This document shows, one piece after another, positions 9,710 to 18,772 of a stretch of DNA of 23,034 nt (within the stretch, counting starts at the first letter, position 1; each line of letters begins with the position of its first letter). The stretch is from a virus, in IMG/VR virus record IMGVR_UViG_3300017745_000064, positions 1 to 23,034 of that record. One strand, given 5' to 3'. The notes beneath the pieces were generated by a model, which was not told the DNA's origin, made no database searches, and saw nothing but the letters and a program-made list of their open reading frames with translations. A program made the position numbers and the translations under genes.

Positions 9710-10975
9710 TTACGCTGTTCGTACGTACAAAGCTACACCGTAGTAGTAGTTTTCGTTATAATGTCGTGTAGCAGTATTCGCACCCATGTTTCTCCATGTA
9801 CCGCTCACAGAACTTCCACTGGATGAGTTTGACGAACTAAATGTAGTATATTGATACCCTGACTGATTTTGTTTATTATATCTAAGGCTACCACCAGATA
9901 CTGTGCTACTCACACTTACACTTCCGCTGTTTAAATACAATGCGGCGTAAGAACCAACAGCGTTAAAAGAGCTAGACGGAGTTCCGGCTGCTCCTGATGG
10001 ACCTGTCGGACCAGTTGGACCTGTCGGGCCAGTTGGACCTGTCGGACCTGCACTACCGTTGCTTCCGTTGCTTCCTGCTGGGCCTGTTGGACCTGTTGGA
10101 CCTGTTGGACCTGCTGCAATGGCGTTTGCTGTCGTTGCTTTTTTCCAAGCTGATGCAGAGGTATCATATACTGCCACTACATCATCAGTTGCTACTGAGG
10201 TTATAGTCCCAAAGCCTGTTAAAGCTGCACCTACGTTTGTACCGTCTGTTACATCAGCAGAAGCTTCTACACCGTCTAACTTAGTATGGTCAGCATCTGT
10301 GAATACATTACTGTCACTTGCACTTTCAACCAACGTTCTGATTTCAGCAGCAGTCTGGTCGGCAGTGGCTGAAGCCTCAATACCGTTTAACTTAGTATGG
10401 TCAGCATCAGTAAACACATTACTGTCTGATGCACTTTCGACCAATGCACGTATCTCTGACGCTGTTTGATCTGCAGTAGCCGAAGCCTCAATTCCGTCGA
10501 GCTTAGTACCATCTGTGGCTATATCTCGCCCATCCACTGTGCCAGTAACTACAATGTTACCGTTTGCAGTAATTGCACCTGCAGCAAAGTCACCATTTGA
10601 GTCCCGCGCCACTATGGTACTTGCAGTATTTGCATCTGTCGCGTTAGATGTTACTGTAAAGGTCGCTCCCTCTGCACCTGCAGAACCCGACAAACCGACC
10701 CCCGACACTGCACCTGCAGCGACGTAGTTGCCAGTTGTTTTTGTTCCTAGTGCAACAGAGTTGTTGGCAACAGCAGAGGCATCTACCGCTCCTGCTGCAA
10801 GACCTGTTGAGTCAATCTTCGGACCTTCGCCAGTTGTACCATCGTGGCTATGTCCTGTTGAGCCGTTAAAACCAGCTTGAATAGCATCAAACTCACCATC
10901 GAGGTCAGACGCATTGATTACGTTGCCATCTGCAATGTTGTTTGAGCTATCGTTTCTTACGTATCCTGTACCCAT
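9710..10975 (-). CDS. Collagen-like tail fibre protein
   Basis: A 421-residue receptor-binding fibre. Residues 1-50 ([20 protein letters not shown], then [11 protein letters not shown]) match the baseplate- or tail-attaching N-terminus found on many marine phage fibres. Residues 60-155 are a beta-rich shaft ([20 protein letters not shown]). Residues 158-231 are two near-identical 37-residue units, with a partial third to about 245. Residues 289-331 are collagen-like Gly-X-Y triplets, mostly Gly-Pro-Thr. Residues 335-421 form a Ser/Tyr-rich tip ending [10 protein letters not shown]...ALYVRT, typical of fibre C-termini. A GGAG site precedes the ATG. Chaperone and two hydroxylase-like genes follow directly, so the fibre is an obvious candidate substrate. 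Confidence 0.9.
9983..10111 (-). repeat. Collagen-like Gly-Pro-Thr triplet repeat in the tail fibre
   Basis: Residues 289-331 of the fibre hold about 14 uninterrupted Gly-X-Y triplets. Most are Gly-Pro-Thr, split by a short Gly-Ser-Asn and Gly-Ser-Ala stretch. Proline is in the X position and threonine in Y. Such runs form a trimeric collagen triple helix in phage fibres. At DNA level they are 9-base repeats prone to slippage, so the triplet number may vary between related phages. Confidence 0.9.
10283..10504 (-). repeat. 111-bp tandem repeat (37-residue units) in the tail fibre shaft
   Basis: Two direct copies of a 111-bp unit encode [19 protein letters not shown] and onward to [12 protein letters not shown] (residues 158-194 and 195-231). 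A partial third copy begins [13 protein letters not shown]. The protein copies differ at only a few residues, while the DNA has more silent changes, so the duplication is under protein-level constraint. Similar units recur in fibre shafts, where copy number sets fibre length. Confidence 0.88.
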
Positions 10976-10978
10976 TTG

Positions 10979-12505
10979 TTATCTCCTTCCATATAATGCG
11001 TACTGGACAGTCGCAGCATCTATGGTAAATGTTGAGTCGGTTGTTTGTCCTAGCGTTTCATATAAAAGTGAAACAGTGAAACCAGATCCCGTTACTGGCA
11101 CCTGATATATTGCACGTTGCTTTTGACCAAAGGTTGCAGTTCCGAATACCCCTGTTCCGTACGTTACTGCTGTACCCGTAGCATTACTAAGCGATATTGG
11201 TACGGGCTGCACAGAGTTTGCTTGGTCAAAATCGTACTTTATTGATAGTTGAACATCAAATATGCCGTTCGCATCAAAATAAGTTGTGGCTTTGTAAAGT
11301 GTCTTTCGTAGGTTTGGATCTTGTAATGGGACAAACGGTGTAGCGAATGTTGCGGTTATATTAACACCATCAAAAGTGTTACCCTGTTCCATTCGATATA
11401 CGTAGCCATCATCCCCGCCAAAAAACACGTACTCTGTAGTACCATCATATTCACTGCAAGCAGAGTATACTTTAAATCCTCTTAAATCATTCCATGCAAT
11501 GCCATCTTGTAATTGTGTTCCTGCTATACCTTTAGAACCAGTAGGTTGAATAGAACTATTATATCCAAATATTCTGTACTGACTCTTTTCACGTATAACG
11601 CAACTTGAAAACACGGAATTTGTATTTACCAAATCCAACATCTCAGTCTGAATTGGTTTTGATATTACTGCTAGTCCAAAGTCTCCTATTTTATCAGTGG
11701 CAGAAAATGTACGAAGACCGTCTGGTCCCAGAAATATAATATCGCCACCTATTTCTTGTACGGTGTCTGCTTCTACACAACCAAGATCACGAGATACGGG
11801 TTGTAATGTAAAGTCAGCTACACTATTACCTACAAGACGATTAATCCGACCTTCACTAAATATAATAAGTTGATCACGAAATACTATTAATCCTGTTACT
11901 TCGTCGCCTACGTTTATTATACCACCACCCGACGCACTTGTAAAGTCTTCATCTTCGTAAGGTGCAGAAAAAAGAAGCTTTCTGTTGTTTGCTATGAATA
12001 TGTGGTTTTTAAAATTTACTACAAAGTCTGCTCCGGTAAAGTCGGAGGACAATGAACTTAAAGATTTGAATACTGTGTTGTTAAAAGTAAACGGCTTACT
12101 TACACCGTCCACTACCATAATCTTTTCTGTGCCATCAAAATTGTATTTTAAGAAACGTACTTTACCAGAACCAGCATTTAGGTTTACACCTGCACTACTA
12201 AAAGAGGCATTGTTGGTTACTTCTGTCCATGTAGTACCACTTGATCTGTAAAGCCCAGTGTTTCGTGCTGCGTATACATTTCCACCATAATATATAAGCC
12301 CTCTAACAGGGCCACTATTTGAAAGTTGACTACTGCTCCACTTGCTGTATCCTTCAATACGTCGGTATCCACCGGACTGTGATGGTTCAAAGTTACGTAA
12401 GATACGAGCAGACCCCGGAGCACCTAGACCGTGTTGCAACGGAGATAAATTAGTAATTAAACCGCCTTTAAGTTCAAAGGCGTTGGTAGTCCAACGATCA
12501 GGCAT
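10979..12505 (-). CDS. Tail nozzle / tail tubular protein B-like
   Basis: A 508-residue beta-rich protein starting MPDRWTTNAFELKGGLITN, with the conserved-looking segment GSARILRNFEPSQSGGYRRI near the N-terminus. This opening (list of preserved loci followed by repeated YGGNVY-type and LIIFSEGRINRLVG strands) is what I associate with nozzle proteins of short-tailed marine phages, the equivalent of T7 gp12. Repeated blades of beta sheet suit a propeller-like nozzle. It directly follows the adaptor gene (start at 12505, adaptor stop at 12506), the usual order gp11-gp12. A family search would be needed to exclude a general phage stabilisation protein. Confidence 0.75.
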   Translation of the reverse strand: MPDRWTTNAFELKGGLITNLSPLQHGLGAPGSARILRNFEPSQSGGYRRIEGYSKWSSSQLSNSGPVRGLIYYGGNVYAARNTGLYRSSGTTWTEVTNNASFSSAGVNLNAGSGKVRFLKYNFDGTEKIMVVDGVSKPFTFNNTVFKSLSSLSSDFTGADFVVNFKNHIFIANNRKLLFSAPYEDEDFTSASGGGIINVGDEVTGLIVFRDQLIIFSEGRINRLVGNSVADFTLQPVSRDLGCVEADTVQEIGGDIIFLGPDGLRTFSATDKIGDFGLAVISKPIQTEMLDLVNTNSVFSSCVIREKSQYRIFGYNSSIQPTGSKGIAGTQLQDGIAWNDLRGFKVYSACSEYDGTTEYVFFGGDDGYVYRMEQGNTFDGVNITATFATPFVPLQDPNLRKTLYKATTYFDANGIFDVQLSIKYDFDQANSVQPVPISLSNATGTAVTYGTGVFGTATFGQKQRAIYQVPVTGSGFTVSLLYETLGQTTDSTFTIDAATVQYALYGRR

Positions 12506-13183
12506 TTAAACCGCCCTTGCATAAATATTCTCGTTTACATTTTGTACACGCATACGTTTCATTCCGTCTTCAAATTTTTGAAAAGAAGTACGTGCAGACT
12601 CTAAATTGTCTCTAAACATATATGCGTAGTACATAGAACCGTCTGTAATAACATGTCTGTATCTGTAGGGAATTGTAGGTACATCTGTGTCATTTAAAAG
12701 ATCAGCCGGGTACATAAAGTATTCGTATTCCACAGAATATGCTGCATCAGGAATTGGAGCAAATATTATGTCGTTATCTTGTGATCTTACAACATACTCT
12801 GGAGCAGATCCCTGAGTAGCCGTTTTATACTCTTCATCAATAAATCTACTAATATACTCATCGTAAGATAGTTGTGTTAATCTACGAGCATTGTCTACTA
12901 AAGGAGTAGTACTACGTTGAAGACGAACTGTATCAAAATCCACGTATTTAGCATTAGCAGGTAATGGATACCGTAGCTGTCCTGCAGTCAAGGTAATTGT
13001 ATCAAAGTTATGATTGAAGGGAAATTGAAAGTGTGATTGATTTATGTCTCGTATAGCAGCGTTTACAGCGTCCTTTATTTGAGAATAGACTCCTGTAGTG
13101 GTACCGAATTGTGTAGATGTTAACTCTGTTTCATTTAACCTACGACATACATCATTTGTTAAGCCAAGAAAATCATATGCCAT
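12506..13183 (-). CDS. Tail adaptor (tail tubular protein A-like)
   Basis: A 225-residue protein with an N-terminal helix (MAYDFLGLTNDVCRRLNETE), a second helix (SQIKDAVNAAIRDINQSHFQ), and then beta strands (FDTITLTAGQLRYPLPANAK). The C-terminal helix is rich in Tyr, Arg and Met (GSMYYAYMFRDNLESARTSF). This matches the build of gp11/gp4-type adaptors that sit between portal and nozzle in short tails. Adjacent to the nozzle gene with no spacer. The assignment rests on sequence pattern and order. Confidence 0.75.
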   Translation of the reverse strand: MAYDFLGLTNDVCRRLNETELTSTQFGTTTGVYSQIKDAVNAAIRDINQSHFQFPFNHNFDTITLTAGQLRYPLPANAKYVDFDTVRLQRSTTPLVDNARRLTQLSYDEYISRFIDEEYKTATQGSAPEYVVRSQDNDIIFAPIPDAAYSVEYEYFMYPADLLNDTDVPTIPYRYRHVITDGSMYYAYMFRDNLESARTSFQKFEDGMKRMRVQNVNENIYARAV

Positions 13184-13501
13184 CTAGTTTTTCTCCACCA
13201 CACGAAGTCTAACTTCCTGTTCTATAATAGTTGAATCACTGGCAGTCATACGGCATATTATATTGTAGGTTGAAAAGTTTGTACCCAAACCAAGAATTAG
13301 TGTAGCCACTGTGTTAGTATTTGTGTTACTTACATGTTGTAGGCCATCTACAATAGTGCCTTGAGTGAACGTAGCAAATGCACCATTAGTAAATATCTTC
13401 CATGTTACACTGCTGATGGTGTTAGTTCCAAGTTGAGCTTCCCAATCAATTGAATAATCAAGTTGGTCGTCAGGATCTTTGTCTTGCCATTTTAAAGCCA
13501 T
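13184..13501 (-). CDS. Small Ig-like virion protein (fibre-tail adaptor type)
   Basis: A 105-residue protein starting MALKWQDKDPDDQLDYSIDW. The body alternates strands (SSVTWKIFTNGAF, TVATLILGLGTNF, YNIICRMTASDSTIIEQEVR) in the style of an Ig-like beta sandwich. The KDPDD-LDYSIDW opening followed by such a sandwich is what I recall for small phage proteins annotated as fibre-tail adaptors. It lies between the fibre-like protein and the tail adaptor, supporting a structural link. The function beyond that is inference. Confidence 0.75.
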   Translation of the reverse strand: MALKWQDKDPDDQLDYSIDWEAQLGTNTISSVTWKIFTNGAFATFTQGTIVDGLQHVSNTNTNTVATLILGLGTNFSTYNIICRMTASDSTIIEQEVRLRVVEKN

Positions 13502-13502
13502 T

Positions 13503-14618
13503 TTATGCTGCCCTTCGTACTGACTGTAATTCTACTAAACGTACTGTTCTTGCTCTATTGAAGTTGTTAGCATTAAATGTGGTAGTAACTCCTGATGATG
13601 TAATTGTCCCAACAGCAGTTGTTCCTTGAACACTAGCCAGAGCTTCGGTAACATCCTCAACCAATGTGTTAACAGAACCTGTAGCCTGTACACCCGTCAG
13701 GGATGTTTTAACGCCACCGCCTACTGTGTTAATACTGCCTGTTCCAACTACACCCGTAAGCAGTGCTTGACCGTTAAGAACAATTGAGTTTACTTGCCCT
13801 GCACCCTGTACACCAGTAACAGTCTTGGATACGTTAGGCTGAATAGTTCCAATGGCACCTGTCGCAGAGACACTAGCCAGATTTTCATCTATATCAACCT
13901 CTAGTCCATTTACTTGAACCGGAGCTATTGCGCCTGTAGCCTGTACACCAGTTAGTTGTTTTGTACTAAAAGCCACACCGTATTTGGCTTTACCGTACCT
14001 ACCACTGCCGTAGATTGCTACGTAGTCTGCGTTAAATGTAACGTTAATGGTGTTACCCATCGCGTTACCATGCACTGTACAGTAGTATAGAAGACTACTA
14101 GGAGTACTGGCATCTACAACTATCTGAACATTTGCACCCGCGTTTCCGGGTGTTCCATTGACGGTTACGCCAGTAGTGTAAGAAGATCCAGAAGCAGCGT
14201 CTTTGAATCGCAACGGATGACCTGAGTTACTACTGTCAGACAGGTCAAAAGTATAAGTGTTACCTCTGGTGAAGGTTAAGACGGGAGCTTCTACACCCCT
14301 GCTGTAGTAACGGTTTATTGATCCGTTGTTAGCAACTGTAATTACGAAAGTATTTATTACAGTCGTCACAGACCCCAACGCAGACGTTCCTACTACGGAT
14401 GCTACTGTTTTGCTACTATCGTTAGCAGTGGTTACTGCAGTCACCTGTCCTGTAGCACTAACACCTGATGGTTGAGCTATTGAGACAAGTGTAATTGATC
14501 CTAGTGCGGAAGTACCACTAACTCCGGCTACAGTTACAATACCTGCCGCTCTTCCATAGGAAGCTGAACCGTACTTACCGGAACCAAAGATAGCATCAGA
14601 ATCGCCGTAAAAGGACAT
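13503..14618 (-). CDS. Repeat-rich fibre-like virion protein carrying a plastocyanin-like domain
   Basis: A 371-residue protein built of short beta repeats of the type TGVQATGSVNTL. I count nine: near residues 31, 51, 73, 223, 248, 268, 288, 308 and 328. The motif IFGSGKYGSASYG occurs at 10-22 and again as IYGSGRYGKAKYG at 202-214, so the chain looks like two modules, each opened by this motif. Inserted at about 91-196 is a cupredoxin-like domain (see the separate entry), followed directly by the second module. The C-terminus is basic (RARTVRLVELQSVRRAA). Its place among tail genes makes it a virion fibre or decoration candidate. Confidence 0.8.
   Translation of the reverse strand: MSFYGDSDAIFGSGKYGSASYGRAAGIVTVAGVSGTSALGSITLVSIAQPSGVSATGQVTAVTTANDSSKTVASVVGTSALGSVTTVINTFVITVANNGSINRYYSRGVEAPVLTFTRGNTYTFDLSDSSNSGHPLRFKDAASGSSYTTGVTVNGTPGNAGANVQIVVDASTPSSLLYYCTVHGNAMGNTINVTFNADYVAIYGSGRYGKAKYGVAFSTKQLTGVQATGAIAPVQVNGLEVDIDENLASVSATGAIGTIQPNVSKTVTGVQGAGQVNSIVLNGQALLTGVVGTGSINTVGGGVKTSLTGVQATGSVNTLVEDVTEALASVQGTTAVGTITSSGVTTTFNANNFNRARTVRLVELQSVRRAA
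14031..14348 (-). other. Cupredoxin (plastocyanin-like) domain in the fibre-like protein
   Basis: Residues 91-196 read as a small beta sandwich: FVITVANNGSINRYYSRG, TFTRGNTYTFDL, then SNSGHPLRF with H134, and finally LLYYCTVHGNAMGNTINVTF with C180, H183 and M187. His, then C-x2-H-x3-M near the C-terminus, is the ligand pattern of type 1 copper proteins; plastocyanin has C-x2-H-x4-M and amicyanin C-x2-H-x2-M. Domains of the HPLRF...YYC-H-GMG kind recur in marine phage structural proteins as I remember them. Whether copper is bound is not known. Confidence 0.72.
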
Positions 14619-14628
14619 GGCTTAGTCT

Positions 14629-15066
14629 TTAAGCTATGCGAATTACAGCGTTAGATGCGTTTGCAGCAGGGAACTGAATTGTAAGATCACCAGCAGTAGC
14701 AGATACGTTTCCACCAAAATCAATAACACAGATGGCTGAGTTTGAGTTTGCTGTATTGTAGATGATACAACCAGAAGCAGTTATCGTCACGTTTGAAAAC
14801 ACTTCATCTGCAAAATCTACAATAGCAGTAGTGCCATCAAGAGAGATAGCTGCAGAATCTAGTGCTTGTCCACCAGCAGAATAGTTAGTTCCTGATGCTT
14901 CATCAGAGTTACCAGTTACGTTTGAATAGTTTGTTGTTGCGGCATTATACGTACCAGACGGTGATGCCTTTATAAGTGCTAACTTGAGTGAATCTGAATC
15001 TAAGTCGTGTAAACCACCTAGAAGTTCAGATTTAAAGCTAGAACACATTGCTGTTGTGATTGCCAT
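14629..15066 (-). CDS. Small beta-rich virion protein
   Basis: A 145-residue protein starting MAITTAMCSSFKSELLGGLH, then LKLALIKASPSGTYNAATTNY. This opening is common in marine short-tailed phages, in a family I know only as a conserved structural protein next to tail genes. The remainder is Ser/Ala/Thr rich with alternating strands (GCIIYNTANSNSAICVIDFG). An AAAGGAG ribosome-binding site precedes the ATG. No catalytic residues are visible. A role as tail or head-surface component is inferred from composition and place. Confidence 0.78.
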   Translation of the reverse strand: MAITTAMCSSFKSELLGGLHDLDSDSLKLALIKASPSGTYNAATTNYSNVTGNSDEASGTNYSAGGQALDSAAISLDGTTAIVDFADEVFSNVTITASGCIIYNTANSNSAICVIDFGGNVSATAGDLTIQFPAANASNAVIRIA

Positions 15067-17453: not shown

Positions 17454-18536
17454 CTACGCCGCTAGTTGCCACAAATTACTCGCATCTAATCCCATCCACT
17501 TGCTCCACTCTGCATAGTAGTGTCGCATACCAACTTCATCGTGAATGGTGCTGTTCTCGTGTCGTCCGTGTAAGATGTTACGGGGTTCTGTTCCCTCGCG
17601 CATTGTTGTACCTTGACCAGCTACGCCGATAAGGTCTTCGTGCAGGTTACGTCCGAATGGACCCCAAATAGAGTTGTGATGCTTGATACGAGTCGCACGT
17701 TCCTTTGGGGTATCCTTTTTAAGACCATAGCCACGAAACTCAATAAGAACCTTGTTTGGCCCAAGAGGTGTAACGCTATCGCTTCGATAAGCACTACCAC
17801 GAAGATTAAAATTAAATCCGGGGAACAGGTCAACCATGTACCATTGATTGGGTGGCAGGTTAGGGAAACTAAGCTCTCCTCTATCCTCAAACCCATCGTA
17901 CTCCTCGTAGTTAACGGTGAAGCTGCTAACATTAACATGTCCGTTATCGAATGGTATGTTTTTTCTAGCAAAGTATTCATCGTTAAAACCTGACACACGA
18001 TTAAAGTAATGCATGAAATCGTGATAGAACTCGCTGTTGGTATCGTGCCACAGCTTGTAGTTTGTATCTACTACTGCTTTGTGATAGTGGAAGACTTCCA
18101 TCTCTTCGGTGTCGATAGCATCCGTAATACAGTCAAATGCTCCTGCTGTCCACTGATCCACAGTCATGGGGTTGTTTTGATCAAGTGTAGTCCATACCAT
18201 ACCCCCGTGTTTGACTTCACACGGCAACTCTTTCCACATTCCTGAGTGATATGTTAAGGATAGATCGTTGCCAGAGGGACGTTTAACGTTGTCAGAAAGA
18301 AACGTTCTAACTTTGCCATCTTCAAACCGTATAGCTACTACATTGTGCAGTGCTATCTGTGTTGTCCTAAAATCACCTAATTTAGGTAACTCACTCGAAT
18401 GACACATAGGCACCCAAACTTTAGAAAAGATGTCTTCTATCTCTTGTGCATAAATGTCGTAGCTAGAGTAGATTAGAGAACTAATGTGTTCTACTTTAGG
18501 AGTTTTGAGCCAGTCTTTGTGATTGCGTGGTGGCAT
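17454..18536 (-). CDS. Rieske-type non-haem iron oxygenase homologue with degenerate Rieske domain
   Basis: A 360-residue homologue of ring-hydroxylating or quaternary-amine oxygenase alpha subunits. The start is ATG 18536, overlapping the upstream stop as TAATG; a GTG 12 bases earlier is less likely. Residues 28-121 follow the Rieske domain (YAQEIEDIFSKVWVPMCHSS, ELPKLGDFRT, AIRFEDGKVRTFL), but the cluster ligands fail. Where families have N-V-C-x-H-R-G it reads NVKRPSG (83-89), and where they have C-P-Y-H it reads LTYH (94-97). Only H97 remains. The catalytic domain keeps NSEFYHDFMH (E169, H172, H176) and EDLIGVAGQG (D301), possible iron ligands, though the usual H-x4-H is H-x3-H. Either the enzyme works without a Rieske cluster or it has a new function. 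Confidence 0.75.
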   Translation of the reverse strand: MPPRNHKDWLKTPKVEHISSLIYSSYDIYAQEIEDIFSKVWVPMCHSSELPKLGDFRTTQIALHNVVAIRFEDGKVRTFLSDNVKRPSGNDLSLTYHSGMWKELPCEVKHGGMVWTTLDQNNPMTVDQWTAGAFDCITDAIDTEEMEVFHYHKAVVDTNYKLWHDTNSEFYHDFMHYFNRVSGFNDEYFARKNIPFDNGHVNVSSFTVNYEEYDGFEDRGELSFPNLPPNQWYMVDLFPGFNFNLRGSAYRSDSVTPLGPNKVLIEFRGYGLKKDTPKERATRIKHHNSIWGPFGRNLHEDLIGVAGQGTTMREGTEPRNILHGRHENSTIHDEVGMRHYYAEWSKWMGLDASNLWQLAA

Positions 18537-18772
18537 TAGGCTATCCACTTTGTTTCAAAATCTTCATTAGAAATTTCACCACCTTTTTTTTCAGGGGGTT
18601 TAACTATGTTACCATCTTTATCACGAATCAGAGGTTTGCGATTTTTAATTGCGTCTTCAAATCTTTTTTTGTGGTATTGCCTTGTTTTTTCCAAATCCTC
18701 TGTATTATTCTTTTCAGCACTCTCTGCAGCTTTGCGTCCACGAGCCTCTTTTTCAGGTGAGTATGTTGCCAT
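18536..18772 (-). CDS. Small charged hypothetical protein
   Basis: A 78-residue, Lys/Glu-rich, helical protein (SPEKEARGRKAAESAEKNN, then DLEKTRQYHKKRFEDAIKN) with a short C-terminal IRDKDGNIVKPPEKK segment. No domain is recognised. It is coupled by TAATG to the downstream oxygenase homologue, so the two are translated together. Confidence 0.68.
   Translation of the reverse strand: MATYSPEKEARGRKAAESAEKNNTEDLEKTRQYHKKRFEDAIKNRKPLIRDKDGNIVKPPEKKGGEISNEDFETKWIA

Follow-up and report, generated by a model that had tools for sequence, protein, structure and literature searches.

The gene slot and its neighbours

The window, by which we mean the whole stretch of DNA analysed here (23,034 bases, from a virus record), holds a podovirus-like structural gene block on its minus strand. 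One gene of this block encodes a repeat-built protein of 371 residues in which a predicted cupredoxin domain is set between two repeat modules. The features of this gene and of its immediate neighbourhood are as follows.

13503–14618, minus strand: open reading frame (ORF) for a 371-aa repeat-built phage protein with a predicted cupredoxin domain (translation, gene order of homologues)
14349–14618, minus strand: N-terminal module, aa 1–90, with three GVxATGxI-type repeats; missing from some orthologues
14553–14588, minus strand: first GSG-YG-A-YG motif, FGSGKYGSASYG, aa 11–22 (translation)
14031–14348, minus strand: predicted cupredoxin domain, aa 91–196 (AF2 model and PDB matches to copper proteins)
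13506–14030, minus strand: C-terminal module, aa 197–371, with six repeats; alignable with gp55 of Roseobacter phage CRP-345
13977–14012, minus strand: second GSG-YG-A-YG motif, YGSGRYGKAKYG, aa 203–214 (translation)
14629–15066, minus strand: upstream neighbour, 145 aa, phrog_644, the fixed partner of the gene slot (80–91% identity at loci with and without the cassette)
13184–13501, minus strand: downstream neighbour, gp77-like fiber-tail adaptor PF23148 (Pfam 2.1e-13; synteny)
12506–13183, minus strand: SU10-type adaptor protein PF24175 (Pfam, synteny)

Identical copies of the 371-aa ORF are present in two other viral contigs. Counted by eye, the flanks of the protein consist of about nine repeats of some 11 residues with the pattern GVxATGxIxxV, three before the domain and six after it. 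The two GSG-YG-A-YG motifs open the modules on either side of the domain; an earlier interpretation, made from the letters of the DNA and hereafter called the sequence-only reading, had picked out this arrangement, and both motifs are real.

The order of genes, from the 145-aa protein through the 371-aa ORF to the PF23148 adaptor and the SU10-type adaptor, is kept in relatives. The sequence-only reading had described the 371-aa protein as fibre-like. Gene order points the same way, the adjoining gene being a Pfam ‘fiber-tail adaptor’, whereas the protein's own sequence does not show it, its PHROG ‘tail fibre’ matches coming from the copper domain itself; an orthologue that lacks the domain gave no PHROG match. 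The fibre assignment is therefore owed to gene order, from which we consider the protein most likely to belong, in a podovirus-like marine phage, to the region where the tail fibres attach.

Other genes on the minus strand of the window also deserve mention. The best PHROG match of a 508-aa protein (10979–12505) is called ‘amidase’, and its CRP-345 relatives are annotated ‘tail structure protein’; these relatives, and a position following that of the SU10-type adaptor, point to a protein of the tail or nozzle. A 421-aa tail-fibre-like protein (9710–10975) contains tandem repeats and a collagen GPTGPT stretch. Downstream of the genes for this collagen-like fibre and for a tail assembly chaperone, two 2OG-Fe(II) oxygenase genes (PF13640; 8110–8682 and 8664–9272) lie side by side and overlap. 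Within the phage structural and lysis region, the product of 17454–18548 has a ring-hydroxylating dioxygenase alpha-subunit catalytic domain (PF00848, E 1.4e-7), a Rieske-type oxygenase by name; this is possibly a metabolic gene.

Predicted fold and relation to copper proteins

Modelled on its own with 35 homologues, the domain is predicted by AF2 to form a nine-stranded sandwich (mean pLDDT 96.2). The model of the full-length protein is confident for about aa 90–197 only, the flanking repeats being poorly modelled. On these predictions aa 91–196, which the translation places at 14031–14348 as the sequence-only reading had it, constitute a discrete domain with the Greek-key β-sandwich of the cupredoxins. 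That reading had further claimed that four residues recreate the spacing logic of a type 1 copper site, and the translation finds all four at the claimed positions.

14217–14219, minus strand: H134, first putative copper ligand, just before a strand (GHPLRF) (fold, alignments)
14079–14081, minus strand: C180, putative copper thiolate ligand, at a strand end (YYC) (fold, alignments)
14070–14072, minus strand: H183, putative copper ligand (fold, alignments)
14058–14060, minus strand: M187, putative axial ligand, in a C-x2-H-x3-M loop (alignments)

In the predicted fold H134 (domain residue 44) lies just before strand 46–50, C180 ends strand 85–90, and the loop that precedes the last strand contains H183 and M187. 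As modelled, the ligands are thus distributed over strands and loops as in a type 1 copper protein, and both the AF2 model and the profile alignments agree with the claimed spacing logic in ligand order and structural elements. Structure prediction, which had been proposed as a check, thus gave a cupredoxin whose ligands fall on the loops where they would be expected, and the best structural matches are copper proteins. The best solved match found by VIA-align is the N-terminal domain of the Hyphomicrobium copper nitrite reductase (2dv6; Z 10.1, rmsd 2.2 Å over 94 aa), followed by small laccases with Z about 9; sequence identity to the solved structures is 20% or less. The top Foldseek matches, with E-values of 0.003 and above, include the Hyphomicrobium nitrite reductase, rusticyanin, CueO, small laccases and plastocyanin.

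Single-sequence searches of Pfam, NCBIfam and the PDB with the window protein gave nothing useful, and the domain falls in no Pfam or NCBIfam family; a weak Pfam match of the protein to Pyr_redox_dim (E 0.067) was rejected. At the curated cut-off of PF00127 (plastocyanin/azurin) neither the 371-aa protein nor the domain gave a match, and one of the 35 window-type relatives matches this family with E 0.1. Rusticyanin is weakly matched by two of the 35 (E 0.0055). The best Pfam relative is PF25489 (At5g54830-like), a family named after a plant membrane protein, which matches 7 of 10 gp9-type and 5 of 35 window-type members. The window domain itself had no match at the curated cut-off of PF25489, and a viral relative, L037, exceeds the gathering score (28.4 versus 27 bits). 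A distant relation of the window domain to PF25489 thus appears likely.

By sequence, the link between the window domain and the copper proteins is made through the gp9-type copies, to which the window family is joined by a profile match with E 4e-20. When a gp9-type profile was compared with the whole PDB, 25 of the 26 matches were blue-copper or copper nitrite reductase chains, mainly amicyanin, plastocyanin, azurin, pseudoazurin and copper nitrite reductase, with amicyanin first (E 0.002). A first PDB profile search had returned mostly antibody chains, an artefact of the YYC motif. In hhalign comparisons with six bacterial PF00127 proteins, the C, H and M positions were paired with the ligands of those proteins (E 4e-6; E 8e-9), and the H134 position was also paired in the alignment with E 4e-6. 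The alignments suggest that the domain works like the PF00127 family, although it is not filed there.

The phage domain resembles the blue copper proteins (amicyanin, plastocyanin, pseudoazurin, rusticyanin and the N-domain of the Hyphomicrobium nitrite reductase) in its predicted cupredoxin sandwich and in the order H ... C-x2-H-xn-M. The gp9-type copies have a C-x2-H-x2-M loop as in amicyanin, and the window subgroup has C-x2-H-x3-M. One detail counts against the assignment: after the first histidine the phage copies usually continue with Pro (HP), and classical cupredoxins often with Asn. The phage domain also differs from the blue copper proteins in its setting, being a cassette in a large phage protein where those are soluble carriers of the periplasm or lumen, or domains of enzymes. 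A photosynthetic plastocyanin is a small, free, soluble protein, whereas the present domain is embedded in a repeat protein of 371 aa. Marine phages do encode a copper protein, the petE plastocyanin, as a metabolic gene; its product is a free, host-like electron carrier, whereas the phage cupredoxin described here sits inside structural proteins.

Conservation of the ligands and spread of the domain

All four ligands are invariant in the 35 close relatives, as are many other positions. In a diverse alignment of 20 domain copies (29–51% identity to the first row), from which recognizably degenerate copies had been left out beforehand, seven columns do not vary, and the ligands account for four of these. 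For a sample that was blind to the ligands, viral contigs were searched with the N-terminal 41 residues only and the pattern TYxFD[QLV][SD]DS, yielding 77 unique copies. Of these, 75 have all four ligands; this count was obtained by reading the sequences, pattern scripts having given 72 and 74 because they missed a few complete variants. L191 and L193, which are closely related to each other, make up the remainder: in them both histidines and the methionine have all become tyrosine, and the cysteine is kept. Among the 66 copies that are non-redundant, C180 is present in 66 and H134, H183 and M187 are each present in 65; outside the ligand positions, invariance is confined to the columns of the search pattern. 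Hundreds of homologues, with the putative ligands among the most conserved positions in copies selected without regard to them, argue that the domain is not a chance resemblance. The histidine codons of the homologues are a mixture of CAT and CAC and the cysteine codons a mixture of TGT and TGC, so that the constraint acts on the protein. Free variation at the four positions, the outcome that would have spoken against the copper site, is thus not what is seen, and where ligands are lost they are lost in concert.

The same pattern emerged when 14 complete phage records that contain the domain, those of cyanophage isolates, were searched with the diverse profile. After removal of one split duplicate, 32 distinct copies were obtained: 21 have four of the four ligands, 11 have none or one, and no copy has two or three. 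The four-ligand site thus appears, from these sequences, to be kept or lost as a unit and to be under joint selection. Such concerted retention and loss is what a metal site predicts, and is not predicted by a role in stability alone. This bears on the possibility that the domain is a relic, in which the cupredoxin fold has been reused as an Ig-like building block and the site is kept for the stability of the fold without metal. The 11 degenerate copies, found in large baseplate proteins, do indicate that the fold is usable without the site. Drift of a relic would, however, leave copies with two or three of the four ligands, and the site is instead lost as a unit and is intact in most copies of both samples (75/77 and 21/32). 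We consider a relic improbable.

The ligand-less copies (L218, L223–L226, L230, L232–L234 and the first L229 copy) belong to large cyanophage baseplate proteins, and intact copies occur in the same genomes.

The sequence-only reading had suggested that the domain is a cassette, and comparison of a single gene slot across syntenic loci confirms this. At this slot gp55 of Roseobacter phage CRP-345 has the repeats and no copper domain; in L007, L009, L010 and L066 the first module is missing and the copper domain is N-terminal; and in the window, L006, L201 and L202 its position is central. At one gene slot, then, the cassette has been gained or lost. It also occurs within T7-type tail fibres (PF03906), in tandem arrays of two or three copies, in a protein with SGL-like repeats (L015), and in long-tail-fibre proximal subunits and gp7- and gp9-type baseplate proteins of cyanophages. 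The many unrelated carrier proteins, together with the one variable slot, identify the domain as a mobile module of marine phage virion proteins.

The rarity implied by the sequence-only reading, which had called a copper- or redox-active virion surface unusual, is contradicted by these searches, since the domain is widespread in tail-fibre and gp9-type proteins of marine phages. Homologues were found in 336 stretches of viral contigs, and three different query copies matched 173, 336 and 342 phage records. In tblastn the gp9 copy of S-SSM5 matched 336 phage records, nearly all of them cyanophages, the features among the matches listed being mostly annotated as baseplate wedge or tail-fibre connector. 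Twelve gp9 or gp9-type proteins were read (L088, L093 and L244–L253, one of them annotated gp10-like), and all 12 have the complete H/C/H/M set at or near the C-terminus. The hosts of the carrier phages are diverse and include cyanobacteria, SAR11 and methylotrophs. Five PHROG families already contain the domain (30742, 677, 693, 708 and 27200; tail fibre, gp9-type connector, baseplate and unknown), and their listed descriptions speak of fibre, connector and baseplate, with no mention of copper or cupredoxin.

In cellular genomes the domain is rare: 2 of 249 Pseudomonadota gave a match, one being a phage contig in a single-cell genome and the other a pair of secreted-looking single-domain proteins. 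A search of plasmids found no copy. The genes for the pair are adjacent in a bacterial sequence (L237, 915–1493 and 1462–2016, minus strand), and the proteins end in FVDGFES and FANGFEP, which may be a surface-sorting tail.

A proposed role for copper in tail joints and fibres

For an intact, jointly selected site in the fold of a copper protein, the simplest reading is that it binds copper, and we think it very probable that H134, C180, H183 and M187 form a type 1 copper site able to do so. Occupation by another metal, such as zinc or iron, or a free cysteine that links fibre subunits covalently, would be alternatives. The identity of a metal is not readable from sequence, and cupredoxins can take up zinc when they are expressed in bacteria. 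On the other hand, amicyanin and plastocyanin hold their copper with just this arrangement, a histidine followed by Cys-x2-His-x2/3-Met on a cupredoxin fold, and a role confined to disulfide formation does not account for the conservation of the two histidines and the methionine being coupled with that of the cysteine. These alternatives are very unlikely.

An indication that a carrier protein reaches the particle comes from Synechococcus phage S-SCSM1, whose long-tail-fibre proximal subunit (QFG06495.1) has a copy near its N-terminus, at the fibre base, and bears the record note ‘virion protein’. The virion proteome of S-SCSM1 has been measured by mass spectrometry (PMC9602691), and we infer that the note reflects detection in that proteome. 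In S-CREM2, a phage with a printed proteome table, there is a weak partial copy only, outside the proteins that were looked at. Those copies that could be located are found in fibre proteins, at their base or middle or at a joint, and at the C-terminus of gp9; none of them lies at a demonstrated receptor-binding tip.

Virions are assembled in a cytoplasm that is poor in free copper. If copper is bound, loading would for this reason most likely follow assembly, either on lysis or at the surface of the cell. That the mature virion carries bound copper seems to us likely, if clearly less secure than the capacity of the site to bind it. The bound metal would then tie the loop of the first histidine to the C-H-M loop and so make the module rigid, and the module, locked by its metal, would be a structural part of the joints between fibre and tail and of the bases of fibres; electron transfer would not be its job. 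Positions in connectors and at the base and middle of fibres fit a rigid, metal-locked module better than an electron carrier that has no partner or a receptor-binding tip. Nevertheless, the metal-locked structural role is the least certain step of this explanation: given copper in the virion, we regard a mainly structural or joint function as an even call, and a structural role alone leaves unexplained why a copper site has been kept rather than one for zinc or calcium. For the explanation as a whole, namely that the cupredoxin of aa 91–196 has a type 1 copper site, is a mobile cassette within a probable tail-fibre attachment protein and acts mainly as a metal-locked structural module, our judgement is that it is probably correct.

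Two other uses of bound copper have to be weighed against this structural role. In one, the site would be redox-active, passing or storing an electron or sensing the change from the reducing cytoplasm to oxidizing seawater or the host surface, and would act as a switch for fibre deployment or as protection against oxidants. The H-C-H-M set is indeed the signature of electron-transfer cupredoxins, and the nearest relatives of the gp9-type profile are amicyanin and plastocyanin. However, neither a partner protein nor a conserved docking surface is known, and copies placed within large structural proteins and in tandem arrays suit a building block better than a shuttle. A redox function is accordingly unlikely in our view.

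The second possibility is a copper Trojan horse, by analogy with the Ferrojan horse hypothesis, in which copper held by the fibre would be presented to a host surface protein that takes up or responds to copper and would thereby aid adsorption. The precedent is iron, which is held by HxH motifs in the tail fibres of T4 (gp37) and of the alterophage R22Y and which has given rise to a receptor hypothesis (PMC11705849). The strict conservation of the metal ligands and the identity of the carriers, which are fibre proteins, are in keeping with such a role. Against it, the positions known for the domain are fibre bases, middles and joints and the C-terminal end of gp9, none of them a shown receptor-binding tip; hosts as different as cyanobacteria, SAR11 and methylotrophs have no known copper receptor in common; and a search of the 371-aa translation for the HxH motif itself found none. 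Capture of a copper receptor has, we believe, the same low probability as a redox function, and we retain the metal-locked structural module as the preferred reading.

The HxH iron in tail fibres is nevertheless the nearest published concept. As in that case, metal (here putative) would be held by side chains in the tail proteins of marine phages, with consequences for infection and for metal cycling (PMC11705849). The two differ in that the HxH sites are trimeric and lie in fibre shafts, whereas the phage cupredoxin would have an H-C-H-M site within a single domain, of another fold and with another expected metal. In our literature search no paper was found to report a cupredoxin from the virion proteins of phages, and the presence of one in marine phage tails seems to be undescribed so far; subscription papers and preprints were thinly covered, so that priority is not established.

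A broader generalization is possible, though we rate its chances at somewhat less than even: that ocean tailed phages, including most T4-like cyanophages by way of gp9, have functional type 1 copper sites in their tail joints and fibres, and that their attachment machinery carries copper, needs it or reacts to it. Should copper be bound, a virus group that is among the commonest in the ocean would have a redox metal in its infection apparatus, viruses would join the copper-binding ligands of seawater with their infectivity tied to copper chemistry, and the iron (Ferrojan) hypothesis would acquire a counterpart for copper. The C-terminal domain of the cyanophage gp9-type connector, so far named by its position only, gains a concrete identity. 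Isolates that carry the domain, S-SCSM1, S-SSM5 and P-SSM7, are already in culture.
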